Source: Olsenella sp. An293 (GTDB lineage: Bacteria; Actinomycetota; Coriobacteriia; Coriobacteriales; Atopobiaceae). From it: a DNA stretch of 64,000 nucleotides. Below the pieces are notes generated by a model. That model did no database searches. It worked only from the letters and a program-made list of their open reading frames with translations, and was not told where the DNA came from. The position numbers and the translations under genes were made by a program. Location: contig NZ_NFIT01000012.1 in assembly GCF_002159495.1 (NCBI RefSeq), positions 1 through 64,000 of the forward strand, given 5' to 3'. Of this stretch, positions 7,938 through 35,596 are shown piece after piece (the stretch's first letter is position 1; every line of letters begins with the position of its first letter).

Positions 7938-8082
7938 AGGGGCCCTGCCTTTCCATCCAGGCGGGCAGAGAAAGAGCCCGCACCCAAACGATGGGTACAG
8001 GCTACGGGGCTGTCACAAAGGGGTTCTGCCGGGGATAATGGGTGCAACGGGGCAAGCTGGAATGACGTAGGGAGGCGCGACC

Positions 8083-8709
8083 ATGTGCGTGAGGTTCTGC
8101 CCGCTCACGGCCGAGGAGGCCCAGGCCGCGCTCGGCGCGCGCGGGACGGGCCGCCACGCCATTCGCTACATAGAGGCGCCCGACCCCCTCCACGACGCGC
8201 GTCCCGGCTCGCAGGTCCCGCTCTTCGTGCCGGACGGCGCGGGCGGCCTCCGCGTGGCCACGCTCGAGTGGGGTTTCCCGCTCGACGGCAGGCCCCATGC
8301 CGTCTTCAACACGCGGATAGAGTCCGCCCTCGAGCAGCTGCGCCTGGGCAGGCGCGGCATGTGGGCAAAGGCAATAGCGGAGGGCCGCTGCCTCGTGCCC
8401 GTGCGGGCGTTCTACGAGAGCCATGCTACCGAGAAGGCTGTCAGCGAGCGCACCGGAAAGCCCGTAAAGCGCCAGTACCGCTTCCGCCTCCCCGGCGCCC
8501 GAGCGTTCCTGCTCGCCGCCGTCCAGCAGGACGGCCTCTTCTCCGTCGTCACCACCGCGCCCAACGCCAGCGTCGCGCCGGTTCACGACCGCATGCCCCT
8601 TGTCCTCGGCCCCGGTGAGCCGAGCGTGTGGCTGGGATCGAGCTTTGCCGCACTCGCAAACCGTAGTCGTATCGGGCTAATCGTAGAGGACGGGGGTAGG
8701 CAGGTTTGA
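8083..8709 (+). CDS. SRAP-domain protein (HMCES/YedK-like abasic-site DNA-protein crosslinker)
   Basis: 208 aa. It starts Met-Cys, so the catalytic Cys2 is exposed after Met removal, as required for the thiazolidine crosslink to an abasic site. Other conserved elements are present: FNTRIES (the Asn/Arg loop), CLVPVRAFYESH with the active-site Glu, TTAPNASVAPVHDRMPLVL with the catalytic His, and a terminal VWL motif. GGGAGG lies 8 bp before the ATG. The gene is on the strand opposite to the structural genes, so it is a cargo-type gene rather than part of the late operon. SRAP proteins protect ssDNA abasic sites and occur in phages and defence islands. Confidence 0.9.
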   Translation: MCVRFCPLTAEEAQAALGARGTGRHAIRYIEAPDPLHDARPGSQVPLFVPDGAGGLRVATLEWGFPLDGRPHAVFNTRIESALEQLRLGRRGMWAKAIAEGRCLVPVRAFYESHATEKAVSERTGKPVKRQYRFRLPGARAFLLAAVQQDGLFSVVTTAPNASVAPVHDRMPLVLGPGEPSVWLGSSFAALANRSRIGLIVEDGGRQV

Positions 8710-8737
8710 CTTTTGCGTACCTCTCGCCTCGCCGCGT

Positions 8738-9532
8738 CTATCCGAGGAGCTGCTGGATTGCGGTCTTGAAAAATGGGAGCATAATCCCGGCAAGAACAGA
8801 AGTGCTCTTTGCGATACTCGCAGCTCGCTCAAGCTTCTCCGCGAAGCCTGACTTGTCCTTGTTCCGCGCGGCAGCATCCAGCTCCTTGAGAGAGGCTTCT
8901 GCCTTTTCCTTTACCTCGGCTTCGAGTTCTGTGTCGAGAAGCGCCTGAATCGTCATTCCCAGTGTAACGGCGCTGCTTGCTTCGGCAGACGCCTCAGCAT
9001 TCGCGCTCGCGCTTCCCCCGTTAATTACGTTGTTGTTGGTGAAGTTGTTTTCGATATTCACGGTAGCCTCCATCATGAAATCGCCCTCAACGTATTCAAA
9101 TCCTTTGTCAGTAATCCGAACGTGGTAGGGCCTGTTGTCTGCCCACATGACATCTAGCAACCCCGCACGGCTTAGGGCCCGATAGTCATCAAGGCGGTCT
9201 TCGTAATACTTCGGAGGGACATCGCTGCCGTCCTTGTCGCAGTCAGCGCACAGCCGTCCTATGAGCTCATCGGCAGAGTCCCGCAGGTTCGCACAGCGCT
9301 TTCGAGCCTTGCGGGCCTTTGTGTAGTGATCGCGTCCCAAAGGTAGGAGGCACCGCACAAAGGCAAGCGTTTGTCCCCAATCAGTCTGCATGTCGATCAT
9401 GCCGCAGTCGCGGAGAACGAGAAGATCGTCCGTTATGCCCCATTCGGTAAAGTCGTCAGGGAGAGAGCGTTGTGCCATCCAGATTCGAGCAAGCGCAGAT
9501 TCCTGACTATTCGTAAGCCCTTCCAAAATCAT
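8738..9532 (-). CDS. Uncharacterised protein with winged-helix-like region, last gene of the R-M/Abi operon
   Basis: 264 aa, family not recognised. Residues ~1-150 are mixed alpha/beta ending in YHVRITDKGFEYVEGDFM, which looks like the wing and last strand of a winged-helix module. A low-complexity Asn-rich piece (NIENNFTNNNVINGG) and an Ala/Ser linker follow. The helical C-terminus (~195-264) ends in a hydrophobic stretch, TSVLAGIMLPFFKTAIQQLL, that could be one membrane helix. It starts 36 bp after the Abi_C gene. The ATG at 9532 directly abuts GGGAGG, so translation may begin at the TTG two codons later. Lower GC than the phage genes suggests transfer with the operon. Confidence 0.7.
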   Translation of the reverse strand: MILEGLTNSQESALARIWMAQRSLPDDFTEWGITDDLLVLRDCGMIDMQTDWGQTLAFVRCLLPLGRDHYTKARKARKRCANLRDSADELIGRLCADCDKDGSDVPPKYYEDRLDDYRALSRAGLLDVMWADNRPYHVRITDKGFEYVEGDFMMEATVNIENNFTNNNVINGGSASANAEASAEASSAVTLGMTIQALLDTELEAEVKEKAEASLKELDAAARNKDKSGFAEKLERAASIAKSTSVLAGIMLPFFKTAIQQLLG

Positions 9533-9568
9533 CCTCCCGTGCTGGTCTATCGCCTATCAGGACCCTGT

Positions 9569-10420
9569 CTATCTCAGATGCCCCTTCTCTTTTCTCCAAA
9601 GGTACGTGTCCCAGAGATACTCAACGAGAGTGACGCTCGAACCAACTGCGAGCTTGGCATGGCGCACGAACAGGGGCTCGAAGTCAGCCGCCTTTCCATG
9701 TCCGGAACCCCAGCTGTTCCGGTACTCGGCGATCCCCCCGACGAGGCCGGTGAGGCTTCCTAGGATTTTCTTGACCGTTTGAGCCTCAGGGAGATCGCTG
9801 GAAACGCTCTCCGTATCGATGTCGAGCCTCCTCTTTGTCTCCTTAATCAGCTCGTTCATTCCCCAGCTGCTGGGCACCTTGACGCCAGTCTCCTTGAGGA
9901 TGGTCCTGCAGCAGCTCTCCACGAGTTCCTTAGCCTTCCCGATGGCGTCTGTCGGATTCGTGGTGCGTAGCTCCATAAGCGAGTTGATCTGCGCGGTCAT
10001 GTACTCGGAGGAGAACTGTTCCTTGAGATACTCGGAGGCACCCTCGAACGGATTGTGTTCCGCAATCTCGCGATCAATGACGGCACGTGCCTTGCGATAG
10101 TAGCGGGCATACTCCGCAGAGTAGCGGATGTGGCTGTATGGGCGCTTTTCGCTCACGTCGGGCTTAACGTACTCATCTTCATAGTGAAGCTCGTAATACT
10201 CTAGTAAATCGTTCAATAGCTTGAGTGCGTCACCGTCTGCGCAATCGTCAAGGTATGCAGTGAGGGATTTCCCTTTGGACAATTGGTAACGCTCGCAGAG
10301 AGCAACCCCAACACTCATGAGGGTGAAGTTGTCGAAATCGTTGGTGGAGAAGTCGAGCACATATCCGCCCCTGTTAAACAAGGAGAGAAAGATACCCTTT
10401 TCTAACTGTGTTATCGCCAA
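9569..10420 (-). CDS. Abi_C-domain abortive-infection-like protein
   Basis: 283 aa from a TTG start (10420) preceded by GGAGGG; the next Met (residue 31) lies inside the conserved start of the domain. Residues ~1-110 form a domain I do not identify (NRGGYVLDFSTNDFDNFTL, SKGKSLTAYLDDCADGDALK). The C-terminal part (~150-275) matches the Abi_C family: AIGKAKELVESCCRTILKE, LPEAQTVKKILGSLTGLVGG, then EYRNSWGSGHGK with its RN..GxGHG core. That core is shared with RNase-like abortive-infection proteins. It begins 14 bp after the res gene in the same direction, so it is probably co-transcribed with the type III R-M genes. Confidence 0.8.
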   Translation of the reverse strand: MAITQLEKGIFLSLFNRGGYVLDFSTNDFDNFTLMSVGVALCERYQLSKGKSLTAYLDDCADGDALKLLNDLLEYYELHYEDEYVKPDVSEKRPYSHIRYSAEYARYYRKARAVIDREIAEHNPFEGASEYLKEQFSSEYMTAQINSLMELRTTNPTDAIGKAKELVESCCRTILKETGVKVPSSWGMNELIKETKRRLDIDTESVSSDLPEAQTVKKILGSLTGLVGGIAEYRNSWGSGHGKAADFEPLFVRHAKLAVGSSVTLVEYLWDTYLWRKEKGHLR

Positions 10421-10434
10421 ATGCCCTCCTTAAA

Positions 10435-13050
10435 TCACCCCAAAATCTCCGACCCGAACTCCGCCAGCGTGAACGCGTTCGCCTCGTCCAGCGCCTCGCG
10501 CTCGAACACCATGAAGTACCCGAAGCCCGCCCCCGCCATGTCGGACCACCGCGTGCCCAGCCTCAGCTTGCGCTTGGCATCTTCTGCCAGGTGCTCGCCC
10601 TTGGTCTCGATGGCCATGAGCACGCCGTCGTCGCGCAGGGCGAGGAAGTCCGGGTAGTGGTTGACGAACCCGTTGATGCTGAACTCGCCGGGCTTGCGCT
10701 CCACCACGCGGTGCCACCACACGACGCGCGAGCTGTTTGCCAGCAGGTCAACCATCCTGCGCTCCACGCCGTCGACGCGACCGTCCTCCGCTTCGTAGAG
10801 ACCCTTGTCGTAGCTGGTCATGGGGTTCGCCTGCACGAACGACTCGGGGAAGCGGTACTCGGGCGCGAGCCTCACGTCCCCGCGCGAGAGAAGCTTGCCG
10901 AAGCGCTCCTCGCAGAAGTCGTCGGCGAGCTCGCGCACCGCGTCCGTGACGGCGCGTGCGACGCCGCCCACGCTGTGGAGGCACGCGTCCACGACGGGTG
11001 AGTCCATGTCGTCCACCACGCGGGCGATGTAGCCCGTGAGCTGGGCGCTCCCGAAGGTGTTCTTGAACTGCGAGGCCATCGCCTTGAGGACGAGCGCCTT
11101 CAGGCTCTCGCGCTTGCCCTCGTCGGACATGTTGGCGAAGAGCATCGCCATGTTCTTTCTGACGTCGTCCTCGAGCCAGCGGATGCGGTACTCGTCGGAG
11201 TCGGCGGCGAGGTCGACCTCGCGCGCCTCGGAGAACGTCGCCGGGTTGATGCTCACCTGGTTGATGCCGTACTTGGACAGCCTGAAGTCCGCGAGCAGGT
11301 CCTCGCGGTCGAGCGGCTTCCAGGTCTCGTCGTCGGTGAATATGCCGCCGTCCACGCGAACCATGAACTGTGGGATCGCAAGGCTTGCCGCAGAGCCCGC
11401 CGCTTCGGTGCGCATGCCGTACACGTTCGAGCCCCCTCCCAGGCCGCCGAGCAGGGTGCCGGCCCCTTCCGGGCCCGCCCCCTCCTCGAAGCGCTCCTCG
11501 ATGTCGCCGGAGGCGGCGATGATGTCGTCAACGGTCGCCGCCTCGGTGCCGGCGCCGGCGTTGTCGGACGCGCTCAGGTCGAGTCCGTCCAGGTCGAGGT
11601 CGTCGCCCTCGGCGTCGTCCGGGGTTGCCGCGAGTCCTGAGGCGGGGAGCCCCGCTCGCCCTTGCCGGGGAGCGGGGGCAGGCGCGGTCCCGGCGGTCTC
11701 CACGTCCTCGCGGGAGAAGCCCACGCCGTTGAGGCCGTCGACCACCTGGGTGAGCGTCGCGTCGAAGTCCGCCGACGCCGTGAGCACGTAGGCGATGTTG
11801 AGGCTGCGCGCCCCCGCGCGCGCCGCGTGGGGCTGTCTCAGCACGCGGCCCACGACCTGCTCGACGCTCACCTGAGAGCTCTTGTTGGCGACGGTGGCGA
11901 GCACGTAGGCGAACGGGCAGTCCCAGCCCTCGGCGAGCGCCTCCACGGTGATGATGAAGCGGATGGGGCAGTCACGTGCCATGAGGTCCGCGCCGCCGAT
12001 CTCGTCGACGTCGCCGGTGCGCACGGCTACCTGCTCCTCGGGGATGTCGCCCTCCACGAGCTTCGCCTTGAGCTTTGCGTAGGTCTCCGCGCCCTCGGCG
12101 CCGCGCCGCTCGGCCTGGAAGAGAACGATGGGGCGTATGTAACGCCCGGTGCGCCCCTCGTCCCGCTCGGCGATGGCCTCGAGCCTCCTCTGCAGCGCCA
12201 CCGCGTCGGAGATGGTCGTCCGCTTGTCCGGGCGGCGGTACACCACCACGGGGAGCTTCACCATCTCCTCGGCCTTGAGCTGGCGCGCCGTCGCCTGGGC
12301 GATGACGTTCGCGCCCCTGGCCGGCGTCGCCGTGAGCTCCAGCACGAAGCGCGGGTTGAGGTTCTTGAGCATGTCGAGCGAGAGCTTGCTCCTCGCGCGG
12401 TGGCTCTCGTCCACGATCACGATTGGGTTCGTGCCCGCGAGCGCGGTGATGAGCGCGGTGTCGTCGGCGCCGTCCACCTCGACCGCCGTGCCCGCGTCGC
12501 GCTGGTGGGCCGTGAGCCCGGCGAGCGCCGAGTTCTCCGCGTAGGCGCGCCTCCCGTCCTTGTTCTTGAACGAGTCGTAGGACAGCACGAAGAGCGTGAG
12601 CTGCTCGCCCACGGTCGCGGCGGTGAACGAGCGGCCTCGCAGGCCGTCCTCCTTGTCGAGCACCTCCACGCGCCCGCCGAAGTCGCGGTCGAGCGCCATG
12701 CGCAAGAAGTGCTCCGGGTTCCTCATGTTCTTGATGGTCTGCGAGAGGATCTCGCGCCTCGGAACGAGCCACACCACGACGTTGGCGGCCGAGGGCAGCG
12801 CCTCTGTCAGCACGCGCACGGCGCTCGCGCCGATGAAGGTCTTGCCGCCTCCGGTGGGGACCTTCACGCACACCTTCGGAGCGCCGCCGAGGTCGTCGCG
12901 GTAGCGCTCGACGCCGCCCTGCCCGGGCGTGAGCCCGATCGCGTTCATGAAGACGCCGTACGCCGTCGCCGCGTCCCTGGTCATCGCGTACGTCCTTGCG
13001 AAGCGGCCGATCTCCCTGAGGACGTCCCTCTGGTACTGCTTCAGCTCCAT
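10435..13050 (-). CDS. res: Type III restriction enzyme, Res subunit (helicase-nuclease)
   Basis: 871 aa. The SF2 motor is complete. Motif I is VPTGGGKTFIG (~residue 65), the DEAH-like motif II is IVIVDESHRARS, and motif III is ELTATPARG. Late motifs EGWDCPFAYVLATV and VEQVVGRVLRQP (motif VI) follow. After an acidic linker (~460-540) comes a C-terminal nuclease-like region with FLALRDDGVLMAIETKGEHL, a D-E-K arrangement of the PD-(D/E)XK type. It starts two bases after the mod stop. Longer in-frame extensions are Arg-rich shadow of mod. It should cleave DNA with unmodified head-to-head sites together with Mod; full-length and apparently intact. Confidence 0.92.
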   Translation of the reverse strand: MELKQYQRDVLREIGRFARTYAMTRDAATAYGVFMNAIGLTPGQGGVERYRDDLGGAPKVCVKVPTGGGKTFIGASAVRVLTEALPSAANVVVWLVPRREILSQTIKNMRNPEHFLRMALDRDFGGRVEVLDKEDGLRGRSFTAATVGEQLTLFVLSYDSFKNKDGRRAYAENSALAGLTAHQRDAGTAVEVDGADDTALITALAGTNPIVIVDESHRARSKLSLDMLKNLNPRFVLELTATPARGANVIAQATARQLKAEEMVKLPVVVYRRPDKRTTISDAVALQRRLEAIAERDEGRTGRYIRPIVLFQAERRGAEGAETYAKLKAKLVEGDIPEEQVAVRTGDVDEIGGADLMARDCPIRFIITVEALAEGWDCPFAYVLATVANKSSQVSVEQVVGRVLRQPHAARAGARSLNIAYVLTASADFDATLTQVVDGLNGVGFSREDVETAGTAPAPAPRQGRAGLPASGLAATPDDAEGDDLDLDGLDLSASDNAGAGTEAATVDDIIAASGDIEERFEEGAGPEGAGTLLGGLGGGSNVYGMRTEAAGSAASLAIPQFMVRVDGGIFTDDETWKPLDREDLLADFRLSKYGINQVSINPATFSEAREVDLAADSDEYRIRWLEDDVRKNMAMLFANMSDEGKRESLKALVLKAMASQFKNTFGSAQLTGYIARVVDDMDSPVVDACLHSVGGVARAVTDAVRELADDFCEERFGKLLSRGDVRLAPEYRFPESFVQANPMTSYDKGLYEAEDGRVDGVERRMVDLLANSSRVVWWHRVVERKPGEFSINGFVNHYPDFLALRDDGVLMAIETKGEHLAEDAKRKLRLGTRWSDMAGAGFGYFMVFEREALDEANAFTLAEFGSEILG

Positions 13051-13052
13051 GG

Positions 13053-14801
13053 TCAGATCCTCGCTATCTGGTCGGGCACGCGCTTGAACACGATGCCCAT
13101 CTCGTCCAGGCGCTCGGGCGCGATGGCGCAACGGTCGGCGTAGATGACGGTCGGAGACCCCTTGCGCGGGAGCTCGCGTAGAAGCTCGTAGGTGAGCGTC
13201 ATCTCCTCCCCGGGTTCCCAGGCGAGGTAGTAGACCGCCTGCGCGTGCTCGCCGAGGAGGTAGGGGTGCTCGTCCGTGAGGTCCTCGTAGGGAGCGCGGG
13301 TCTCGTTCGCCCACACATAGCGCGCGAGGTCCGCGCGCTTGACGACGGGACTCAGGGCGCCATCGCTCTGGAAGAGCGCGGGGCCGAGCTCGTAGTAGGA
13401 GAAGCCCGAATCGACGCCCTCGGCAGCATTGTTCCCCTCGCCGTAACCCGAGATGACGCGACGAACACGCTCGGCGGTAACGGTATCTGCGTAGTCCATC
13501 ATCTCAACGAGAATGAAGCGACGGTTTCCGCCGTCGGCGGCGTTGAGTCGCATGACCGCGTGGGCCGTCGTGCCGGAGCCCGCGAACGAGTCGAGCACGA
13601 GGGCGTCGGGCTTCGCGGTGATCTGCAGCACCCGCTCTATGAGGCGCGTGGGCTTTGGGGTGTCGAAGGGAACCCTTCCGTCGAAGATTGCCTTGAGCTC
13701 CTTCTTGGCCTCATCGGTGTGGCCGACCTCTGAATGAGGCCAGTAGTTGGTCGGCAGGCGTCCACCAACGCTATCAAGATACGTCTTTCTCGCTATGCCA
13801 CCTTTGCCATTCCTCGTGAAGTAGAATCGAGGCCAAGGACCCGTCTTCAAAATCTTGGATGCCAGCGCTCGCGACTCCTCGACAGACTGGGCGAGCACGA
13901 TGCCCTTGACGCCCTCGCGCACCTCGGAGACATCGATGCCGCAGACCTCAGCCCTGCGCTCTGCATCATCCAAGTCCCTGAGAACGTACGGGCACCAGCC
14001 GGTCATGTAGTCGAGCATCAAATCCTGCTGGTATCGCCAACAGGAGCCGTTGTACGGGTACAGCAGCTCGCCGGTGAATGGGTGTTGTATCGCGTACACC
14101 ATGCCTTGGTGTGTGGCTGCTCCCGGCGCGAAGGCGTCGCTGCTCCTCCACGGCATATCGTCGTTGTCGGGGTTCTTATACTTCGAGTCCATCTCAGCGG
14201 TGCGCGGAAGCCTCCCCGGCTGCCACTCCGGCTGTTTACCGTAGACAAGCACGTGTTCGACCTCGGCGGGGATGCCTTTGGAGTCATTTCTCGTCGCATA
14301 CGTTCGCTGCCATGACACGTTCGCCACGAAGCAGAACGCCCCGAAAACCTCATCGCACACGAGCCGCAGGTTAGCGAGCTCCGTGTCGTCGATGCTGATG
14401 AAGATCGCCCCAGTCGGCGCGAGCAGCTTCCGCAGCAGCTGGAGCCTCGGGTACATCATGCACAGCCACTTGTCGTGACGGCTGAAGTCCTCGCCCTCCT
14501 TGCCGACGACCTGCCCGAGCCACTTCCTGATGCGCGGGTCGTTCACGTTGTCGTTGTAGACCCACCCCTCGTTGCCGGTGTTGTACGGCGGATCGATGTA
14601 GATGCAGTCGACTCCGCCCTCGTACTCGGGCAGCAGCGCCTTCAGCGCCTCGAGGTTGTCGCCGTGGATGACCATGTTCCCGCAGTCCGAACCGCGACTG
14701 TCAAGCACTCCCTTCTCGGGCACGCGCTCGAGCACGCGATACGGGACGTCGCGGTGGTGGTTGACCACCTTCTCCTTGCCCATCCAGTTGAGAGTCGGCA
14801 T
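13053..14801 (-). CDS. mod: Type III DNA methyltransferase, Mod subunit (N6-adenine, beta class)
   Basis: 582 aa from ATG 14801. The catalytic motif IV IDPPYNTGN is at ~residue 85 and precedes the SAM motif LDSFAGSGTTAHAV at ~395, the beta-class order. Between them lies the target-recognition region (~190-350), which sets specificity. FILVEMMDYADTVTAERV is the usual downstream segment. It is the first gene of a leftward operon with res, an Abi_C protein and an unknown protein. A promoter-like element lies ~55-80 bp upstream. Its methylation would protect both host and prophage. Confidence 0.92.
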   Translation of the reverse strand: MPTLNWMGKEKVVNHHRDVPYRVLERVPEKGVLDSRGSDCGNMVIHGDNLEALKALLPEYEGGVDCIYIDPPYNTGNEGWVYNDNVNDPRIRKWLGQVVGKEGEDFSRHDKWLCMMYPRLQLLRKLLAPTGAIFISIDDTELANLRLVCDEVFGAFCFVANVSWQRTYATRNDSKGIPAEVEHVLVYGKQPEWQPGRLPRTAEMDSKYKNPDNDDMPWRSSDAFAPGAATHQGMVYAIQHPFTGELLYPYNGSCWRYQQDLMLDYMTGWCPYVLRDLDDAERRAEVCGIDVSEVREGVKGIVLAQSVEESRALASKILKTGPWPRFYFTRNGKGGIARKTYLDSVGGRLPTNYWPHSEVGHTDEAKKELKAIFDGRVPFDTPKPTRLIERVLQITAKPDALVLDSFAGSGTTAHAVMRLNAADGGNRRFILVEMMDYADTVTAERVRRVISGYGEGNNAAEGVDSGFSYYELGPALFQSDGALSPVVKRADLARYVWANETRAPYEDLTDEHPYLLGEHAQAVYYLAWEPGEEMTLTYELLRELPRKGSPTVIYADRCAIAPERLDEMGIVFKRVPDQIARI

Positions 14802-14854
14802 TAACGCACATCCAATCCGGCACACGCCGTGACGGTCCATAACACAATGCAATC

Positions 14855-14883
14855 ATTATCCCACAGGGACCGGTCATGTTGAA
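14855..14883 (-). promoter_or_regulatory. Candidate promoter for the mod-res operon
   Basis: Read on the minus strand, TTCAAC (14883-14878) and GATAAT (14860-14855) are separated by 17 bp, about 54 bp before the mod ATG. The -35 is weak and the -10 is good. This is the only obvious AT-rich patch before mod. Confidence 0.4.
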
Positions 14884-14900
14884 AAGTCAGGGCCGTGCAA

Positions 14901-14931
14901 GGCGAGAAGAACGAGAAGAACGAGAAGAACG
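14901..14931 (+). repeat. Three tandem GAGAAGAAC units (GSCGAGAAGAACG motif)
   Basis: GGCGAGAAGAACG begins the block, and the 9-mer GAGAAGAAC then recurs three times without spacing. The same 13-bp motif occurs singly at 16105, 18967, 19014, 19134 and 19327, always intergenic and on the plus strand. Function unknown. Confidence 0.8.
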
Positions 14932-15049
14932 TCGGCACGTCACCATGCTCGATCCGAACGACCCGAGATAAACCCATTGCCGTAGCGACCACCTGGACGC
15001 AGCCCAATCCTGCTCGAGTTTTGCCCGCCGCCACCCGGGGTGCCGCCAC

Positions 15050-15440
15050 CGCCGTCCGCTGCCCATCGAGGGCTGTCCGCAGCCCGCCCGCCTCCGCTCC
15101 GTTGCGCGCACGGCTCGGGCCCGCCCCGCCCCACGCGCGAGGGCCGGTCCCACGGCCGCCCCGCCCGCTCCGGCTGTGTATTGCGCCGCGGCTCGCTCCA
15201 GCCGGCTGCGCCCTCGCATCGCGCCCGGCTCGGTCCGGCCGGCTGCGCCGTCCGCCCCTCGCGGCGGGCGCATGCTTCGGGCTCCGCCGTCTGTCGCTCG
15301 CACCGCGCGCATACACAGCCTCCGCGTCCGGGGCGGCCTGACGTCGGTCAACCTTCGCGCGGGGCGGGTCGGCCCCTCGCTGCGGCGCGCACTCCGCTAC
15401 GGCAGTCGGGCTGCTGCGCCGTCTCGCTCGTCCGCTGCCG
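15050..15440 (+). repeat. Dispersed GC-rich repeat, copy A
   Basis: About 390 bp, over 75% GC, with no convincing gene on either strand. It aligns end to end, with small indels, to the reverse complement of 35119-35512. Shared landmarks are CTCCGGCTGTGTATTGC, GCATACACAGCCTCCGC and GCGCACTCCGCTACGGCAG. Frame-breaking indels between copies argue that it is noncoding. It occupies most of the 780-bp gap between mod and the 15581-15976 gene. Confidence 0.75.
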
Positions 15441-15580
15441 GCAGTGTCGTCACCCAGCCCGGCGGCGGGCGTCCCGGCGCGAGGCCCGTGCCCGAGTGCG
15501 ACGGGGCCGTTGCCGAGGCCGCCTCCGGCAACCGCGCCGCGCGCGGTCCGGCTCCGTCGGTCCCGGTCGCGGCCGCGCCC

Positions 15581-15976
15581 TCAGCGGTCGCCAGCCTTCC
15601 GCCAGGCGTCCGCCTCGTCGTCCCAGGCGAGCTCGACGCCGCCGGCGAGCTCCTCGAGCCTCGCGAGCGCGACCCCGAGCCACTCGACCAGATCGTCGCA
15701 GGGGCCCATCGCCCAGTGGGTGATGTAGCGGCACTGCGAGAAGCACGCGTCCCCGAGCGTCTGCACGTCGTCGATGCGCGAGAGCTCGCGCCTGAGGCCA
15801 CGCGCGTCGTGCAGGGCGATGTCGTAGCGCTCCTCGTACGAGTGCCCGCAGTCCATCCTGAAGCCGAGCCCCCAGAAGCGCTCCGCCCAGTCGAACCTAT
15901 CGAGCGCGGCGGCGCCCCGTTCCTCGATCCTCTCCCTGAGCTCGCGCGCGAACCGCGCGACGTCGCGTCCCTCCAC
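15581..15976 (-). CDS. Uncharacterised 131-aa cytoplasmic protein
   Basis: Starts at GTG 15976, preceded by GGGAGG with 6 bp spacing; the frame remains open upstream but only as Arg-rich, motif-free sequence. The protein is acidic with amphipathic helices (VARFARELRERIEERGAA, LVEWLGVALARLEELAGG) and a central segment with Cys/His residues (GFRMDCGHSYEERY, ACFSQCRYITHWAMGP). I do not recognise the family. It lies between two GC-rich repeat elements in the prophage cargo region with no close operon partner. Confidence 0.6.
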   Translation of the reverse strand: MEGRDVARFARELRERIEERGAAALDRFDWAERFWGLGFRMDCGHSYEERYDIALHDARGLRRELSRIDDVQTLGDACFSQCRYITHWAMGPCDDLVEWLGVALARLEELAGGVELAWDDEADAWRKAGDR

Positions 15977-16104
15977 GGCGTCCTCCCTTCCTCGTCCGAG
16001 ACGATTGTCCCACAAGGGATGATGAGAGGGACGACGCTTCACAACAGTACGTCTGACCTGCGCCTCGTTTTCGACAGACGATAGAGAATTGTCGACAAGT
16101 ACAG

Positions 16105-16117
16105 GGCGAGAAGAACG
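16105..16117 (+). repeat. GGCGAGAAGAACG motif, single copy
   Basis: Exact copy of the 13-bp motif seen at 14901 and 18967-19339. It is preceded by the 10-bp palindrome TTGTCGACAA (16090-16099) and followed by a partial second copy, CGAGAAGGGCG. Confidence 0.75.
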
Positions 16118-16139
16118 TCGAGAAGGGCGATTGTTTCGC

Positions 16140-16450
16140 CGCCCGCCCGGCACCGCCGCCACCGGCCGCTGCCAACCAGGGGCCGAGCGCGCCGTGACCG
16201 CCGCCGCTGCGTCGCGCGCACGGGGCGTCCGTGCCGCCGTCGTGCGCGCGGGAGCCAGCCTCACGGCCGCGCCCCGCTCCGGTCGCGTCTTCGCCGCCGG
16301 CTCGGGTCAGCCCGCTGCGCGGTCTGCCCTCGCCAGGGGGCTCAGCCTGCTCCCTCCGCTCTCGCGCGGCCTACAGCAACCGATGCGGGCGCGCACGCCG
16401 TCGTCACGTCCGCCCTGCGGCGCGCGCCTTAGCGCCGTCGGCCCCGGCGC
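16140..16450 (+). repeat. Dispersed GC-rich repeat, diverged copy C
   Basis: Very GC-rich with no supported gene. It shares order and short blocks with the copies at 15050-15440 and 35119-35512, for example CGCGCGCACGG near its start and GGCTCGGGTCAGCC followed by GTCTGCCCT in the middle. Divergence is much greater than between the other two. It ends abruptly where the low-GC CPBP segment begins (~16456). Confidence 0.5.
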
Positions 16451-16477
16451 TGGCAAATGACCCTAATTGTGATACAA

Positions 16478-16507
16478 GTGAACCCCCTTTGGCGTTAGGG
16501 GGTTCAC
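16478..16507 (-). terminator. Intrinsic terminator after the CPBP gene
   Basis: Perfect 10-bp arms GTGAACCCCC and GGGGGTTCAC around a 10-base loop, 17 bp past the CPBP stop codon; on the minus strand it is followed by TTGTATC. A direct repeat of the right arm (GGGGGTTCA) abuts the stop codon. Confidence 0.75.
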
Positions 16508-16523
16508 TTTGCGCTAAGGGGGT

Positions 16524-17291
16524 TCAGACCTGGCTTTGCTGCTTTTGCCTGCGGCCCAATATGCCTACCAGAATCACAGAGAGGATAATTTCCACGCCGA
16601 CAAGCAAAGCTACTTTTGTTAAATTGCTCCCAACAAGCATGGTGACCGCCGCTGTGTCTATAAGCATATGGGCGAGAATGCAAGGAATGGAGCCGCGCGA
16701 CAATTCTTTTACTGCACCCAGGGTAAATGTGTTCCCAAGTATCATCAGGAAAAAGATGAGGTAATTGGAGGAACCAGCCGTGATCCACGGCAGACGATAG
16801 ATGGGGAAATGCCATATAAACCAGATGACGGATATAACGAGCATTTTCAGCACAAAACTTTTCTTTATGGATATATGGGTTTGCAGATACCATCGCCACC
16901 CCACCTCTTCCAGTCCGCCCTGCAAAAGCGTCCAGGGGAAATAGGCAATCATGGCCGAAAATGGGGAACCGGTAAAAGTCACATTTCCCAGTAAAACTGA
17001 TATTCCATAATAGATAAGCGGCACCGCCAGAGCGGTGACATAGGCATACCGGCGTTCGTGCGGTGAAAACGCCGCTTTAAGAATTTGCCCTATTCCAGAC
17101 ATTTCACCGGACATCTGCACGAAACCAAAGGCAACCAGCATCGGCAGCAGATTCATGAAAATGAACAGCACGGAAGCCCAGATATTCGTGTTGTCCGGTA
17201 CAAACCACAGGATAAGCTGACCTACCAGGAAGGTACAGACAATGGTGATAAGGGCGTATAAATAGGGCAATAAAATGCGTTGATTTTTTAT
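16524..17291 (-). CDS. CPBP-family intramembrane metalloprotease, possible ATA start
   Basis: Membrane protein with about seven or eight hydrophobic segments and the three CPBP motifs: GGLEEVGWRWYLQ (EExxxR), FIWHFPIY (HxxP-type) and a late LAHMLID. The nearest standard start is TTG at 17270 (248 aa), which begins inside the first helix with no spaced ribosome-binding site. Seven codons upstream an in-frame ATA (17291) sits 6 bp after GGAGAAGG and would give the natural-looking N-terminus (M)KNQRILLPYLY, so translation may use ATA or the ATG has mutated. GC is far below the neighbours (~43% by eye), indicating recent transfer from a low-GC Firmicute-type donor. Such proteins are often tied to bacteriocin immunity; the role here is unknown. 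Confidence 0.88.
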   Translation of the reverse strand: MKNQRILLPYLYALITIVCTFLVGQLILWFVPDNTNIWASVLFIFMNLLPMLVAFGFVQMSGEMSGIGQILKAAFSPHERRYAYVTALAVPLIYYGISVLLGNVTFTGSPFSAMIAYFPWTLLQGGLEEVGWRWYLQTHISIKKSFVLKMLVISVIWFIWHFPIYRLPWITAGSSNYLIFFLMILGNTFTLGAVKELSRGSIPCILAHMLIDTAAVTMLVGSNLTKVALLVGVEIILSVILVGILGRRQKQQSQV

Positions 17292-17353
17292 ATCCTTCTC
17301 CTAAATACCAGATTTACTTTATACTATCAGATTATTCTGAAAAGAGCAAGAAA

Positions 17354-17398
17354 AAGCACCGCAACCCTGATACACATTGTATCAAAATTGCAGTGCTT
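17354..17398 (-). terminator. Long hairpin at the edge of the low-GC segment
   Basis: Inverted repeat with outer arms AAGCAC/GTGCTT and inner arms TGATACA/TGTATCA. Read on the minus strand it ends in GTGCTTTTTC, so it would stop transcripts arriving from the portal gene before the CPBP gene. It lies at the right edge of the low-GC segment, and part of it encodes the last portal residues. Confidence 0.65.
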
Positions 17399-19348: not shown

Positions 19349-20626
19349 TCAACCCCTCAGCACATCGTCCATCATCGCGTAGCGCACCGCGTCGATGCTG
19401 TGGTCGTTGCCGTCCGGGATCTCGTCGACCCACGTGCCGTCCCGGTCGCGGTCGTACTCCTTGAGGCGGAACTCCTCGTAGGCCAGGGGCGCCCGCTCAG
19501 GGTCGATGCAGATCTCCCGAAGCCCCGCCAGCCACTCGTAGGACAGCCTGCGCATGTTCGACTTCCTCGCCGGCCGTACCCGCAGCCCCGCGTCGCGCCG
19601 CCACACGGCCATGCTCTGCTTGCCGTCCGGCGTGTCGTCGCACCACACCAGCTCGTCGTGCAGGTAGGCGTCCTCGCCGGGCCTGTCGGCGTAGGTGAGC
19701 GCCGAGACCACCATCGCCGCCGTCTCCGAGGGCGTCTTCCTGTTCGCCGAGAGCTCCTCGAAGATCGTGAGCCTCCTCTCGCCGGGTTCCCACCCGCAGC
19801 GCACGAAGCGCCACGGGTCCGGGAACCAGCCCCAGTCCACGCCGCACCGCGTGCGCGAGAAGCCCCGGCACGCCGCGTCGGACAGGCGCGCCGAGACCAC
19901 GTTGTTGAACACGCTGCCGCCAGTCCCCGTGACCTCGCCCAGGTACTCCGAGCGCCACGCCTGCTCGTCCACCTCGCGCAGGTACTCCGCCTCCTCCACG
20001 AAGGGCCCGCCCAGCCACTCCGGGTGGCTCTCGATCACGTCGAGGTACGAGCTCTGACGAACCAGCGTGTCAGCCCGCCGCTCGCGCTCCAGCTTCTCGC
20101 GGTTCACCCAGCTCCAGAGCGTCCGGGGCGGGTTGTAGCTGTAGAAGATCCAGAAGTCCTCGCCGCCGCGCCTGAGCGAGTTCAGGATCGAGCGCACCGC
20201 GTCGATGCCGTCGAACTGGTCGAGCTCCTCGAACCACGTCACTGCGCAGTACCCGCGCGTGAACTTCACGCCCTTGAGCTTGAGCGGGTCGTCCGCTCCT
20301 CTGAACACGATGCGCTGCCCCGTGGGCAGGTACGTTATCTCCATCGGCGAGATGCGCGCCCGGAACCACGCGTCGAGCCCCAGCGCCGCGATCGCCCACG
20401 TCACCTGCTGGAACACCGAGTCGCGCAGCGTGTTCGAGAATCTGCGCACCACCACCGCGTTCGCCTCCGGGTGCGCCAGGAGGAGAAGGACGATGCACAC
20501 GCTGATGAACGAGCTCTTCGTGGAGCCGCGCCCGCCGTGCAGCCAGTAGTGCGTGTGCCCGTGGGCCATCACGTCGCCGAGCACGTCGTGAAAGCGCGGG
20601 ATGACGAGCGAGGAGGCGTCAACCAT
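19349..20626 (-). CDS. Phage terminase large subunit
   Basis: 425 aa from ATG 20626, overlapping the end of TerS by 8 bp. The packaging ATPase has Walker A LHGGRGSTKSSF (~residue 33) and Walker B VTWFEELDQFD. The C-terminal RNase-H-like nuclease is seen in CGVDWGWFPDPWRFV and the late DGNDHSIDAVRYAM aspartate. It cleaves concatemers and pumps DNA into the prohead. The frame is open upstream but lacks homology features there. A ~460-bp repeat-filled gap to the portal gene is abnormal for this pair. Confidence 0.9.
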   Translation of the reverse strand: MVDASSLVIPRFHDVLGDVMAHGHTHYWLHGGRGSTKSSFISVCIVLLLLAHPEANAVVVRRFSNTLRDSVFQQVTWAIAALGLDAWFRARISPMEITYLPTGQRIVFRGADDPLKLKGVKFTRGYCAVTWFEELDQFDGIDAVRSILNSLRRGGEDFWIFYSYNPPRTLWSWVNREKLERERRADTLVRQSSYLDVIESHPEWLGGPFVEEAEYLREVDEQAWRSEYLGEVTGTGGSVFNNVVSARLSDAACRGFSRTRCGVDWGWFPDPWRFVRCGWEPGERRLTIFEELSANRKTPSETAAMVVSALTYADRPGEDAYLHDELVWCDDTPDGKQSMAVWRRDAGLRVRPARKSNMRRLSYEWLAGLREICIDPERAPLAYEEFRLKEYDRDRDGTWVDEIPDGNDHSIDAVRYAMMDDVLRG

Positions 20627-21047
20627 CGGCGCGCTCCTCGCCGAGCCCGTCAAGCGGCAGCGTCTGCTGCACCGGCTGCGCCACCACGCCGAGCACGATC
20701 CTCGGCGCGGCGTCCGCCTTGGCATCATCGCGCTGGCGATCCGCCTTGCCGAACTCGTCGGGGTACTTGCGCTCGAGCAGCCACGCCGCCGCCGTCCAGT
20801 ACTGGTTTCTCGCCAGCGCCGCCGAGCGGATGGTCGTGAGCAGCGTCCGCTTGAACGCGCTCTCCTCCTTTTTTAGTCCCTCGCTTAACTCGCGCTGCAG
20901 CTTGTTCTTCGGCTCGCCGATCCAGCGATAGAACGTCGACTCGTGAATCCCCAGCGCGCACACGATGTCACCATTGGAGAGGCCGTCCGCCTTGAGGCGG
21001 ATCGCCTCGTCAACCATCTCCTGCGTCAGCTTCGGACGCCTCGCCAT
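20619..21047 (-). CDS. Phage terminase small subunit
   Basis: 142 aa. It has an N-terminal helix-turn-helix (MARRPKLTQEMVDEAIRLKA, GLSNGDIVCALGIHESTFYRWI), as in DNA-recognising terminase small subunits, followed by helices for oligomerisation (ALARNQYWTAAAWLLERKYP). Two Met/Val codons precede ATG 21047, which best fits the GGGGGTG ribosome-binding site. It sits directly before TerL with an 8-bp overlap. Confidence 0.85.
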   Translation of the reverse strand: MARRPKLTQEMVDEAIRLKADGLSNGDIVCALGIHESTFYRWIGEPKNKLQRELSEGLKKEESAFKRTLLTTIRSAALARNQYWTAAAWLLERKYPDEFGKADRQRDDAKADAAPRIVLGVVAQPVQQTLPLDGLGEERADG

Positions 21048-21119
21048 GCGCATCACCCCCGCGAAAGTCGATAGAACCTCTCACGGTGGATTCTCCGGGC
21101 GCGTCACAAAAGGAGGGAA

Positions 21120-21309: not shown

Positions 21310-21723
21310 CTAACCCTTCCGCCCCCGCTTCCCCTTGAGCCCGTACTTCCTGCACAGCCGGCTGTTCCGCTGCCGCATCATGTCCCGCTCGCGCCGCACG
21401 TCGGCGAGCTCGGCGGACTCCTCGCACGCCGCCCGCTCGCGCTCCAGCTGCTCGTTGAAGGCGCGCTCCTGCTCCAGGTGGTAGCGCTCGGTGCACAGCG
21501 GGCACATCCCCGTCTGCCGGTTGATCTTCACGCCCACGGCCCCGCACGAGGGGCACACCGTCTGGACGGCGAGCGAGCAGTGGATCCGGCTCGCCCGCAT
21601 CTCCACGGCCCGCACCGAGTGGCGCACTCCGCAGCGCCGCTCGATCTCGGCGGCGGCGTAGGCGGCCCCCCGGAAGCTCACCTCGCGCAGGACGTCGTCC
21701 TGCTCCTCGGTCCACCAGCTCAT
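21310..21723 (-). CDS. Phage zinc-ribbon / SANT-like DNA-binding protein
   Basis: 137 aa from ATG 21723. Residues 1-~45 (MSWWTEEQDDVLREV, AAAEIERRCGVRHSVRAVEMRA) resemble a Myb/SANT-type helix bundle. A zinc ribbon CPSCGAVGVKINRQTGMCPLC with two CxxC knuckles follows at ~58-78. Then comes a charged coiled coil (~80-120) and a basic tail (KYGLKGKRGRKG). Proteins with this architecture occur between the replication and packaging genes of Gram-positive phages and may be late regulators; the role here is inferred. Confidence 0.75.
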   Translation of the reverse strand: MSWWTEEQDDVLREVSFRGAAYAAAEIERRCGVRHSVRAVEMRASRIHCSLAVQTVCPSCGAVGVKINRQTGMCPLCTERYHLEQERAFNEQLERERAACEESAELADVRRERDMMRQRNSRLCRKYGLKGKRGRKG

Positions 21724-21742
21724 CGCGCGCACCTCCCTCCGC

Positions 21743-22013
21743 GTCTCAAGCCACCGCACCCGCGCGTCTCGCGCCCGCATGAGACGCCGACCAGCCCCGC
21801 CACCAGCGAGAACGCCGCCCGTCTCAACGTCTCGACCGAAACCGCGCCCAAGGCCCCCGCCCGCGCGTGCGCGCGCCCGCGCCCGCCCGCGCGCGACGTC
21901 CCCTCATGTCTCGTCCCCGTCAAGACGTTGAGACATGAGGAGGGGACGCGCACCCTCACCAGCCGCCAGGGGCGTCTCGACCCGTGTCTCAGCATGGCCC
22001 GCCCCCTTGAGAC
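21743..22013. repeat. Ten-site GTCTC/GAGAC iteron-like cluster (candidate phage origin)
   Basis: GTCTC occurs on the plus strand at 21743, 21766, 21821, 21829, 21908, 21974 and 21986, and its complement GAGAC at 21781, 21930 and 22009. Ten sites in 271 bp compares with about one expected by chance. Several extend to CGTCTCAAC or TTGAGACG, and CATGTCTC/GAGACATG (21905-21937) forms a 33-bp inverted repeat. The cluster covers the 3' end of the primase-helicase gene and the 260-bp gap behind it. Confidence 0.6.
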
Positions 22014-24715
22014 GGCGCCACCGAGGGAGGCGCGCCCGCCGAGCGCTCGAGCATGGCCTCGAGCGCCGCGTTGTCCACGCACACGCAGTACACCCGCGAG
22101 TCGCCGAAGCGCTTCTGCCGCGTGAAACCGCGCCCGGAGCCCGGCAGCAGCACGCCCTCGTCGGCCATGCGCCTGAGCGTCTTCTGCCGGTCGAAGTTGG
22201 CGCCCGCGAGCGCCTGGTCGAGCACGGACGAGAATACCCACCAGCAGAACCCCGGCCGGTCGCGGTACTGCTCCACCGACCCCCAGCGCTCGAGCCGGTC
22301 CATCTCCGCCGAGCTCTCGAAGTGCAGGCGGTTGCGCACCAGCCACTCGGCCACGAACTGGATCGCCTTCACGTCGGTGTCGCCGCCGTCCGCGCCCGTG
22401 GCGTTCACGAGCGCCCAGCGCGCCATCAGCATCGCGCCCTCCAGGCACGCCGCCCAGTCGCTGCCCGGCGCGAACACGTAGAACTGCGCGAGGGCGTCGG
22501 CGAGCGCGAGCAGCGCCACGTTGTCCGCCTGCGGGTGCCCGCCGGCGGCGGCGCACACGGCGTCGCGCACGGAGGAGAACTGCCCCGCGTAGAAGGCGGC
22601 GTCGTTTCGCCGAAGCGCGGCCACGTAGGCGCGCCCGGCGGTGCCGTGCTGCGCGGAGACGAGGTGGTGCATCGCCTGGGCGGCGCGCACGTCCTCGAAG
22701 GGCTCCGCGCAGAGCTCGAGGGTGCGGTTCGCCGCGCCCTGCTGGGTTGACGACCCAACGATGGGGATCTCGCCCGTGGCTATCGTGAGGCAGCGCCACG
22801 AGCCCGCCCGCATCATCGTGCGGTCGCTGTTGAGCGCCCCGCGCTCGTGCCCGAGCGAGAGCGAGTAGAGCAGGTCCTCCACGACCTGCCGCTTGCCCGC
22901 CTGGCCGCCCACGGCGCCCTTGCTCTGCAGCTCGTCGATGATCACGGGTATGTCGTGCAAAAGGGCCGCCGCGCGCACGATGCTCTTGGGCGTGTCGGCG
23001 AAGGTGCGGAAGTAGCTGTCCGCGCCCTCGGTGGGGTCGCCCCACACGCTGCCCGCGGCCTTGAGGGTCGGCGTCTTGCCGGAGCGCGAGCGCCCCCAGA
23101 GGTACACGATGAAGGTCTGCACGCCCAGGAGAGACACCAGCGGGGAGGCGAAGCTCGCCGCAAGCACGCAGCGGAACGCCATGGAGGCGGCCCGCGCCGG
23201 CGCGACGCCCTCCACCCACGCCGCGAGCGCGCCCGCGGGCTCCATGAAGGGGCGCGCCTTCACCGCCTCGTCCGGGCTGGGGTCGAAGCGCACGCCGCCC
23301 TCGCCCAGGTCGTAGGGCATGAAGGCGGAGAGCGGGCCGTCCGCCCACCCCAGGTGCACGACGCTCCTCGCGCGCGGACGCGCCCATCCGTAGCGGCGCT
23401 CAACGTCGGTCAGGTAGCGCACGACGTCCTTGGCGTTGGCCGAGGACACGTTGGCGCCCAGCGGCGCGAGCGCGCCGATCACCTTGCTCTGGTTGAGCAG
23501 CACCTCGCGGTCGAGCGCCCGCTCGCGCACGCCGCCGGGCACCGTCACGCGCACGAGGGCGCGCACGTCGCCGGTGTCCACGTCCACGAGGTCGGCCGCC
23601 ACCCAGGGCGCCGTCGAGGTCACGGAGCGCGTGGGCTCGCCGTCGCGGTCGCACGTCCAGAGCCTCCCGCGCGCGTCGACCATCCACCCCTCCACAGAGG
23701 GCGCCGTCTCGAAGTCCGGCGCCTCCTCGTCCGGGGATACCCCTTCGTCCGTGCCCGGCGCAGAGGTCGAACACATGTTCCTATCATTGACGCGAGAGGT
23801 GCGCGCGGGGCGAGAGGGACGTGCGGCCCTCGGCCGGTAGAACTCCGTGCAGCCCTCTATCGCCCGCTCTATCGTCTGCGCCCCGTAGGTGGTGCCGCCT
23901 CGCCTGCTGTCCCACTTGTCGCGCATGAGGCCGCTCCTGCGGAAGATCCGGTCCATGCGCGCGGCGTCGCCAGCACACCAGAACGCGAGGTGCGAGCACA
24001 GCGCCATGTCCGCCGCCGAGCGGTCGCCGCCCTGCGCCGAGCAGTCGCCCGCCATGAGGGCGCGGATCGCGCCCCCGCTGCGGGAGGCGTACATGCGCCC
24101 CAGCAGCTCCTCGTCGTCCACGCCGACACCGGCCGCCGGCGCCTCCGAGAGCGTCGGCTGAGCGGCGGCCCGCTCCGGCTCGATCCAGGTGCGGTAAGCC
24201 CTCTCGACCACGCCGGGGTTCGCGCTCACCGCGCCGTGCCCCTCGAACACCATTCCCGTCACCGTGAAGTACCGGTCGTGGTCGTACATCTCCACCACGC
24301 GCCCGCCGGGCTGCCCCTTGCGCGAGCGCTCGGCGCCCTGGGGCTTCGCGCCCCTGAAGATCAGGTGCAGCCCGTCGCCGGACGGCGAGACCTCCGTGTA
24401 GGTCCCGGCCTCCTCGACCACCCAGCGGTACGCGGGGTCGAGCACGCCATCCGAAATCACGTGGTCGAGGTCGAGCCCCGTGAACGCGCGGTCCGGCCCG
24501 AAGACGAACCCCACGCCGTCGCAGCGCCAGCGCGCCACCGCAGCCACGGCCTCCTCGAAGGTCGCCCAGGTCGCCGGGTCCGTGCTCTTGGCCATGCGCC
24601 CGGTATGGGCGTCAACGGGCAGCTTCGTCGCCCTGCCGTTGCGCTCCTCGCGCCGCCAGCACACCCAGCGCGGCTCGCGGCGCAGCTCCGCCGGCACGCC
24701 CCTCAGGTCAGCCAT
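21989..24715 (-). CDS. Phage primase-helicase (PrimPol-like N-terminus, DUF927 helicase)
   Basis: 908 aa. Residues 1-~170 resemble the PrimPol module of NrS-1-type polymerases: WVCWRREERNGRATKLPVD, GVGFVFGPDRAFTGLDLDHV with the catalytic DLD, and the conserved SPSGDGLHLIF. A helix bundle (~200-290) contains GDRSAADMALCSHLAFW and IFRRSGLMRDKW. The C-terminal half is a DUF927-type SF3-like ATPase with Walker A LWGRSRSGKTPTLKAAGSVW and IPVIIDELQSKGAVGGQ. It should prime and unwind phage DNA. The reading frame is intact. The iteron-like cluster at its 3' end may be the template site. Confidence 0.88.
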   Translation of the reverse strand: MADLRGVPAELRREPRWVCWRREERNGRATKLPVDAHTGRMAKSTDPATWATFEEAVAAVARWRCDGVGFVFGPDRAFTGLDLDHVISDGVLDPAYRWVVEEAGTYTEVSPSGDGLHLIFRGAKPQGAERSRKGQPGGRVVEMYDHDRYFTVTGMVFEGHGAVSANPGVVERAYRTWIEPERAAAQPTLSEAPAAGVGVDDEELLGRMYASRSGGAIRALMAGDCSAQGGDRSAADMALCSHLAFWCAGDAARMDRIFRRSGLMRDKWDSRRGGTTYGAQTIERAIEGCTEFYRPRAARPSRPARTSRVNDRNMCSTSAPGTDEGVSPDEEAPDFETAPSVEGWMVDARGRLWTCDRDGEPTRSVTSTAPWVAADLVDVDTGDVRALVRVTVPGGVRERALDREVLLNQSKVIGALAPLGANVSSANAKDVVRYLTDVERRYGWARPRARSVVHLGWADGPLSAFMPYDLGEGGVRFDPSPDEAVKARPFMEPAGALAAWVEGVAPARAASMAFRCVLAASFASPLVSLLGVQTFIVYLWGRSRSGKTPTLKAAGSVWGDPTEGADSYFRTFADTPKSIVRAAALLHDIPVIIDELQSKGAVGGQAGKRQVVEDLLYSLSLGHERGALNSDRTMMRAGSWRCLTIATGEIPIVGSSTQQGAANRTLELCAEPFEDVRAAQAMHHLVSAQHGTAGRAYVAALRRNDAAFYAGQFSSVRDAVCAAAGGHPQADNVALLALADALAQFYVFAPGSDWAACLEGAMLMARWALVNATGADGGDTDVKAIQFVAEWLVRNRLHFESSAEMDRLERWGSVEQYRDRPGFCWWVFSSVLDQALAGANFDRQKTLRRMADEGVLLPGSGRGFTRQKRFGDSRVYCVCVDNAALEAMLERSAGAPPSVAPSQGGGPC

Positions 24716-28098: not shown

Positions 28099-28145
28099 AC
28101 AGTACAGTCAACGAACTGTCTCCTCGTGGGAGAACGGCAAGACCT
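28080..28145. other. Prophage attachment junction in a host regulator gene
   Basis: The integrase stop TAG is at 28096-28098. From 28106 the sequence reads as the recognition-helix part of an XRE domain (SQRTVSSWENGKTYPDV), whose first ~20-25 codons are absent. The crossover core must lie at or within this segment. The other end of the prophage is left of position 1, so the direct repeat itself cannot be seen. Two GATTCGTACCAG copies (28007, 28019) just inside may be integrase arm sites. Confidence 0.6.
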
Positions 28146-35075: not shown

Positions 35076-35118
35076 CAATGAGGAGCGCAGAGAATCCTCG
35101 CCCGTCCGGCCCCACACC

Positions 35119-35512
35119 CCACCACCACCCGCGAACGAGGGCGAAAGGGCAGCAGCCCATCTGCCGTAGCGGAGTGCGCGCCGCCGCGAGGAACCGACCC
35201 GCCCTGCGCACGTCAAACTCCCGGCAGGCCATGCCCAGAGCGGAGGCTGTGTATGCGCAGCGCCGCGAGGGACAGACGGCGCAGCCGGAGTGTGCGACCG
35301 CCGCGAAGGGCAGACGGCGCAGCCGGCTGACCTGAGCCGGGAGCAACACGCAGGCGGAGCTGGCTGGCCCGAGCCGCGGAGCAATACACAGCCGGAGCGA
35401 CGGGCATGGCCGTGAGTGGCGCTCTCCGCGCAGGGCGGGGCGGTTTCCGAGCCGTGCGCGCGACGGAGCGGAGGCGGGTGGGCTGCGGTCGACCCTCGAC
35501 GGGCAGCGGGTG
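35119..35512 (-). repeat. Dispersed GC-rich repeat, copy B (inverted)
   Basis: Reverse complement aligns along its length with 15050-15440. Shared blocks include GCTCCGGCTGTGTATTGC, GCATACACAGCCTCCGC and GCACTCCGCTACGGCAG. It fills the 570-bp gap between tetR and the XRE/zinc-ribbon gene. No gene is supported in the gap. Confidence 0.75.
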
Positions 35513-35596
35513 GTGGTGGGGTGTGGGCTATTGGATGATTCTGCTCTGCTTAGGCGTCAAAAGCCCTTATCGGCAATTCGGACTTGCGTAAGGCTC

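Follow-up and report, generated by a model that had tools for sequence, protein, structure and literature searches.

A putative SaPI/PICI-type iteron origin with a GC-alternating core beside the PrimPol-helicase gene of a Coriobacteriia prophage

Excerpts of published work on the SaPI helicase family place an iteron origin directly downstream of rep (PMC7581432, PMC6092414), and the SaPI and PICI origins described in excerpts of three reports have two sets of iterons flanking a central region, with letters that differ between elements (PMC7581432, PMC6092414, PMC9894130). The Cch2 origin of SCCmec, as given in an excerpt of PMC7581432, has AAGTG iterons downstream of the helicase gene, which the C-terminal domain of the helicase binds in vitro. 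For the NrS-1 phage primase-polymerase, excerpts of two papers describe a superfamily III C-terminal ring and a priming motif, TTTGGTTA or GTG (PMC8718748, PMC7102993). Here we compare with these systems an array of short repeats in a 64-kb stretch of DNA from Olsenella sp. An293 (the window, meaning the whole stretch analysed), and we consider it highly likely that the array serves a temperate siphophage as its replication origin, on the pattern of the SaPI/PICI Rep-ori.

A preliminary description of the window reported ten GAGAC/GTCTC sites at 21743-22013 (271 bp) next to a PrimPol-helicase gene. All ten sites were found exactly at the positions given, and the cluster is located 3′ of the 908-aa gene; eight sites fall inside the 265-bp spacer that is bounded by the stop of this gene and by the 137-aa gene, and two overlap the 3′ end of the 908-aa gene. 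GAGAC/GTCTC is depleted overall in the window (118 observed vs 194 expected), and a count of the background, which had been proposed as a check, gave only 3 sites in the densest 271 bp elsewhere in the 64 kb. GAGAC at 21743-22013 is the most extreme cluster among all 5-mers of the window, and dinucleotide-preserving shuffles of 21701-22050 (n = 5000) yielded a mean of 1.28 and a maximum of 7 sites vs the 10 observed. Two further details of the preliminary description could not be reproduced. Several sites were said to be extended, but CGTCTCAAC occurs exactly once within the cluster, at 21820, and a 33-bp inverted repeat was not found; instead, there are shorter arm pairs of 22 nt (21891-21912 and 21930-21951, 82% complementary) and of 16 nt (94% complementary, 82 bp between the arms). 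The 16-nt arms, which are kept in relatives, are the inner pairs of Table 1. The cluster holds 3 copies of CGTCTCAA, both strands counted, and GTCTYRAS is a better unit, with 7 of the window's 20 matches falling within the cluster. GAGAC is therefore clustered as claimed, but is merely the core of an 8-bp unit with letters that vary between phages.

Read in the orientation of the helicase, the array runs from one iteron pair (21934-21919) through the 82-bp core to an inverted pair (21836-21821), and single sites flank this arrangement at either end (Table 1); the inverted pairs around a GC-alternating core were absent from the preliminary description. A search of 121 family genomes for an exact double-pair pattern matched three of them, at one place in each, and a reversed control of the pattern gave no match. 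Equivalents of the first site of the outer group at 21974-22013 are present in relatives. GC skew showed no switch at the array beyond what gene direction explains.

Table 1. Features of the array and of the neighbouring genes, in window positions.
Feature	Position	Strand	Remark
Terminase small subunit (TerS), rival binder (packaging)	20619..21056	-	phrog_4102
P0002 (phrog_36956), 137 aa, rival binder	21310..21723	-	GcrA/Myb-like helix bundle, Cys-X2-Cys pairs, long coil
Outer GAGAC sites, three (21743, 21766, 21781), small-gene side	21743..21785		Outer sites also present in relatives
Inner iteron pair 2, GTCTCAAC-GTCTCGAC	21821..21836	+	Inverted to pair 1; kept in relatives
82-bp core between inner pairs, 83% GC, proposed opening site	21837..21918		Nearest-neighbour stability
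Alternating CG/CA tract, strongest predicted Z-DNA segment of 64 kb	21858..21895		Rank 1/261, sigma -0.05
GAGAC site within core, in one 22-nt inverted-repeat arm	21908..21912	-	Missing from some relatives
Inner iteron pair 1, GTCTCAAC-GTCTTGAC	21919..21934	- (helicase strand)	Position kept in relatives
Outer GAGAC sites, three (21974, 21986, 22009)	21974..22013		Two overlap helicase 3′ end
PrimPol-helicase, 908 aa, proposed initiator	21989..24715	-	NrS-1-like PrimPol and HBD, then DUF927 SaPIbov1-Rep/Cch-like helicase
C-terminal winged-helix domain (HTH_56), proposed iteron binder	22070..22381	-	Pfam placement; predicted fold

Pfam assigned NrS1-1_pol-like_HBD (PF22763, 1.7e-33), DUF927 (7.1e-30) and HTH_56 to the 908-aa protein, and its sequence matched the PDB entries of the NrS-1 primase (6a9w, 3.5e-48), a SaPI protein (8tch, 1.9e-12) and Cch (5dgk, 1.1e-6). 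PF22763 and 6a9w place the PrimPol and HBD in the NrS-1 group, while Pfam, the PDB sequence matches and the top folds all identify the helicase as a self-loading DUF927 relative of SaPIbov1 Rep and Cch. An AlphaFold2 model of residues 333-908, made with 11 sequences, was poor (mean pLDDT 58.5) except for the C-terminal domain, which was good. The best fold match of the helicase model was 8tch, the PDB entry titled SaPIbov1 replication initiator helicase (Z 12.9, rmsd 11.1, 388 aligned), and Cch (5dgk) matched with Z 11.5. The predicted C-terminal domain resembled TcpK both alone (5vfy) and on oriT DNA (5vfx), with Z ∼11.5 and rmsd 2.7 over 98-99 residues; HTH_56 and this TcpK-like predicted winged helix point to a C-terminal domain that is predicted to bind double-stranded DNA. 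HTH_56 occurred in only 3 of 396 phylum genomes and led to no further high-GC lineages. A second copy of the helicase in the same genome (G000:C4:69634-71505, L002) is 91% identical over residues 4-622 and is truncated by the contig end.

The locus resembles the SaPIbov1-type Rep-ori in its DUF927 self-loading helicase with a C-terminal dsDNA-binding domain (binding is predicted here), in two sets of iterons that face each other about a centre just 3′ of rep, and in letters that vary by element. In contrast to the SaPIbov1 type, the array belongs to a full prophage with head and tail genes, the helicase is fused to an NrS-1-like PrimPol, and the core is GC-rich and predicted to be Z-prone; the SaPI core is AT-rich, and the AT-rich central melting region of the SaPI/PICI-type Rep-ori is absent from the array. 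Cch2/SCCmec likewise has short direct repeats just 3′ of the helicase gene, but, in the excerpt of PMC7581432, Cch2 is a D5-type helicase rather than DUF927, with three iterons only and a separate polymerase-primase. NrS-1 shares the N-terminal PrimPol and HBD but differs in its superfamily III ring, and an iteron array is not mentioned for it in the excerpts of PMC8718748 and PMC7102993.

Diverse defence genes directly follow the portal gene in relatives, which suggested that the element is a satellite (PICI); this idea was rejected because it has its own head and tail genes further on. Genes for the major head protein, head-tail adaptor, Dit and tail fibre occupy 1.4-7.4 kb of the window, whereas a satellite would have no full set of its own head and tail genes. 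Variable defence cargo lies between the portal and head genes (8020-17380). In the window it comprises a type III restriction-modification pair (13053-14852, 10435-13314) and an Abi_C protein (9569-10420), and the same place elsewhere holds an EcoRII-like type II restriction-modification system with AbiJ (L214), a type III system (L215) or a type II methyltransferase with a mads-like ATPase (L216); the cargo flanks rejoin at ∼8018-8030 in several genomes. An AT-rich CAAX-protease-like (Rce1-like) gene beside the portal gene (16524-17270) is absent there in L213 and L215, where the flanks abut. The integrase end continues at 28100-28125 into the 3′ portion of a gene for an XRE-type regulator, and the junction is the same in L019, there with a different XRE gene. 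The second att half was not found within the window, which begins at contig base 1. Many related loci contain, after the portal gene, a copy (80-96% identity) of a 0.4-kb segment that in the window lies outside the prophage (35112-35526).

Searches with tblastn of 160 loci and the window returned 36 rows with the helicase 3′ end or the small gene (L016 and others had no helicase 3′ end). We analysed 33 of these rows (27 distinct spacers), omitting the window itself (L001), L084 (the same match as L083) and L034 (a partial small-gene match). The spacer in relatives measured 211-307 bp, and in 26 of the 33 syntenic rows it contained 16-31 GAGAC per kb vs 1.1-2.2 per kb in the remaining locus. 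The other 7 rows were GAGAC-poor (0-2 copies; five with none and two at 7 per kb) and showed the same inverted-pair layout in other letters: GTCACC (L020, L027, L090, L091), GTCTTC (L022, L089) or GTCTTG (L023). A GTCTTAC form of the unit was present in another genus (L182). Conservation of the cluster, which had been named as a test, was thus observed for the array, spelled with GAGAC where the relationship is close and with other letters where it is more remote. Neither of the two outcomes named in advance as refuting, a similar density elsewhere or loss of the sites in relatives, was therefore seen. The inner pairs and outer units change letters together, as expected if one protein reads all of them. 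The helicase was found in 32 of 396 genomes in a class search. In L181, clear iterons were absent from the right strand, and a 6-mer test was not significant for L008, L009, L022 and L092, in which the units are degenerate.

Beyond Coriobacteriia, the phages THSA-485A and FP_Epona have a different primase joined to the same helicase type, and iterons directly 3′ of the helicase (AGGTAACCGA in THSA-485A; TAGGTGAAAC in FP_Epona, in inverted pairs around an AT-rich core). Since phages with other primases share the array architecture, we dropped the reading of the iterons as PrimPol recognition motifs (TTTGGTTA, GTG). A clustered 6-mer was also found 3′ of the helicase in the satellite PT1028, the phages Jekyll, AC844P1, phiRg507T2_3 and phiAH14b, and three faecal contigs. 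Among 12 loci from phage records (L200-L211), 10 had iterons beside the DUF927 helicase (p 0.04 or better), and neither P0002 nor a related TerS was detected in any of the 12; the 6-mer test was not significant for L179 and L189, where units are visible by eye, or for L209 and L210. A wider sample combined 75 loci from a set of 80, of which five without the helicase end were dropped, with the whole of a second set of 19, and these 94 loci gave 87 distinct viral loci once 3 that were too short and 4 repeats were removed. A clustered 6-mer lay directly 3′ of the DUF927 helicase in 79 of the 87 (p≤0.02), many of which are mutually close so that the cases are not independent, and 8 failed this threshold.

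On the basis of these comparisons, namely the helicase homology, the conserved layout with changing letters and the recurrence 3′ of DUF927 helicases, we conclude that the array very probably represents a Rep-ori of the SaPI/PICI type, carried by a temperate phage. The comparative evidence supports the original proposal of a candidate iteron origin beside the PrimPol-helicase gene. The argument first given for it, that phage origins are often found close to primase genes, is generic; a specific one comes from the helicase half, which is related to SaPIbov1 Rep and Cch and thus to a family with its iteron origin just 3′ of rep. Origin activity, winged-helix binding, double-hexamer loading and core opening are inferred. 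Several copies of the PrimPol-helicase would bind the 8-bp iterons via the C-terminal winged helix, and probably two hexamers would face each other on the inverted inner pairs. The hexamers would then strain and open the 82-bp core and thread onto single strands, and the fused PrimPol would lay the first primers. Among titles and abstract openings of open PubMed Central papers, we found none on iteron origins in Coriobacteriia phages.

Mantel tests over 12 Coriobacteriia loci compared iteron similarity with protein identity and gave a weak relationship for the winged helix (r 0.24, p 0.11), r 0.45 for PrimPol (p 0.016), r 0.41 for P0002 (p 0.025) and r 0.07 for TerS (p 0.33). Scores for the match of left to right arms discriminated poorly between the iteron types (own 11.3, other type 9.2 of 17); the 8- and 9-bp unit periods probably defeat ungapped matching. 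These two results do not show a fine coevolution of the winged helix with the iteron letters. One alternative is that P0002 binds the GAGAC sites as a regulatory array and controls its own transcription or late genes. Its gene begins at the spacer end and adjoins the array in all 33 analysed rows, its identity tracks the iteron letters, and its model (pLDDT 89) has a predicted GcrA-like DNA-binding domain (5yiu, Z 6.7, rmsd 1.2 over 44 residues), which may be just a common fold. However, phages in which P0002 was not detected have the same architecture 3′ of their DUF927 helicases, and the symmetric pairs and near-constant core length seem to suit a loading site better than an operator, so we regard a P0002 operator as improbable; P0002 could be a helper that binds at the array. 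Packaging sites are often near terS and may contain repeats. We considered a packaging function, in which the small terminase would recognise the repeats as a pac or cos-like site; the terS gene is ∼0.7 kb downstream and is followed on the same strand by the genes for TerL and the portal protein. This is less probable still: the near-zero Mantel correlation disfavors TerS as the reader, the TerS of L006 and of L027 are both 83% identical to that of the window and yet their units are GAGAC and GTCACC, respectively, and iterons accompany DUF927 helicases in 10 of the 12 L200-L211 loci although no related TerS was found there. Because both P0002 and TerS went undetected in those loci, neither is likely to be the common reader, and the helicase is the common element. 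Finally, although the GC content is 74% in the spacer plus 30 bp of flank at either end and the inverted pairs could pair in RNA, it is very improbable that the cluster reflects chance, the composition of GC-rich DNA or an RNA hairpin with no binding function, given that the shuffles never reached ten sites, that the direct and outer copies change letters with both arms, which a single hairpin would not require, and that an Rfam search gave matches below the gathering score only.

The new feature of this presumptive Rep-ori is its GC-alternating core; the cores of most relatives are AT-rich, and those in Coriobacteriia are mostly stable and predicted to be Z-prone. Core stability was calculated by nearest-neighbour energies with inner pairs picked by eye, leaving out L202 and L204. 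On a scale where 100 is least stable, the core of the window lies at the 1.3rd percentile of same-length windows in the 16-kb locus. Cores in 14 of 15 Coriobacteriia loci were at or below the 25th percentile (the exception is L023, at the 74th), whereas all 7 outside loci were above the 95th; these include phiAH14b (62% GC) and FP_Epona (57% GC), and GC-rich hosts alone thus do not force a GC-rich core. The wider sample included 78 loci with an inverted core; 70 of them were at or above the 90th percentile and two were at or below the 25th, L302 and L272, the latter with no significant iterons. A hidden AT mini-element in the core was rejected, as the weakest 20 bp did not stand out in most loci (a weaker 20-bp stretch than that of the core was present in 3.8 to 99% of windows, with L022 and L008 lowest).

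We predicted Z-DNA propensity with Z-Hunt dinucleotide energies and a simple superhelical term. The predicted Z score of the alternating tract exceeded those of all 94 GC-matched windows and of its own base shuffles, and at sigma -0.06 the predicted segment (21852-21895) ranked 1 of 1429 in the window. At this superhelical density, the spacer segment came first in 9 of 18 loci and in the top five in all 18, and it scored above every GC-matched window in 11 of 15 loci (not L012, L023, L092 or L029); at sigma -0.05 it did so in 13 of 15 (not L023 or L092). Only 11 of 113 loci passed a Z score of 5: ten of the Coriobacteriia clade and L302, an unrelated phage on a separate branch with a similar core, a locus of 49% GC and iterons GTCGTAACA. 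In a tree of 58 helicases, the label of a Z-prone core needed two changes, both forced by well-supported branches; because the L302 branch is long, the separation of L302 from the Coriobacteriia clade is more certain than its precise position. Alternating CGCGCGCG tracts also occur ∼115-145 bp after the helicase stop in the otherwise AT-rich cores of L301 and L281 (38% and 47% GC), and are possibly minimal forms of the same element.

One tentative explanation, which we regard as less likely than not, is that the core opens by a B-to-Z switch in place of AT melting, and that the AT element was replaced in this way at least twice, in the Coriobacteriia phages and in the L302 lineage. Negative supercoiling would flip the alternating CG/CA tract to left-handed DNA, absorbing torsion, and bases left unpaired at the B-Z junctions beside the iterons would offer single strands to the two Rep hexamers. 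The main alternative is that double-hexamer loading and shearing would open the GC core without an AT element, and the alternating tract may have cruciform or other roles. We found no paper on a Z-prone core in this Rep-ori type among titles and abstract openings of open PubMed Central papers.

The GC-alternating core runs counter to the rule that an AT-rich melting region is required in origins of this kind, and provides a natural system for studying the first opening of DNA by self-loading helicases. If the tract never flips, a natural origin that is pulled open as GC duplex would be a direct test of double-hexamer shearing. In addition, rep together with the spacer could seed a plasmid replicon for Coriobacteriia.
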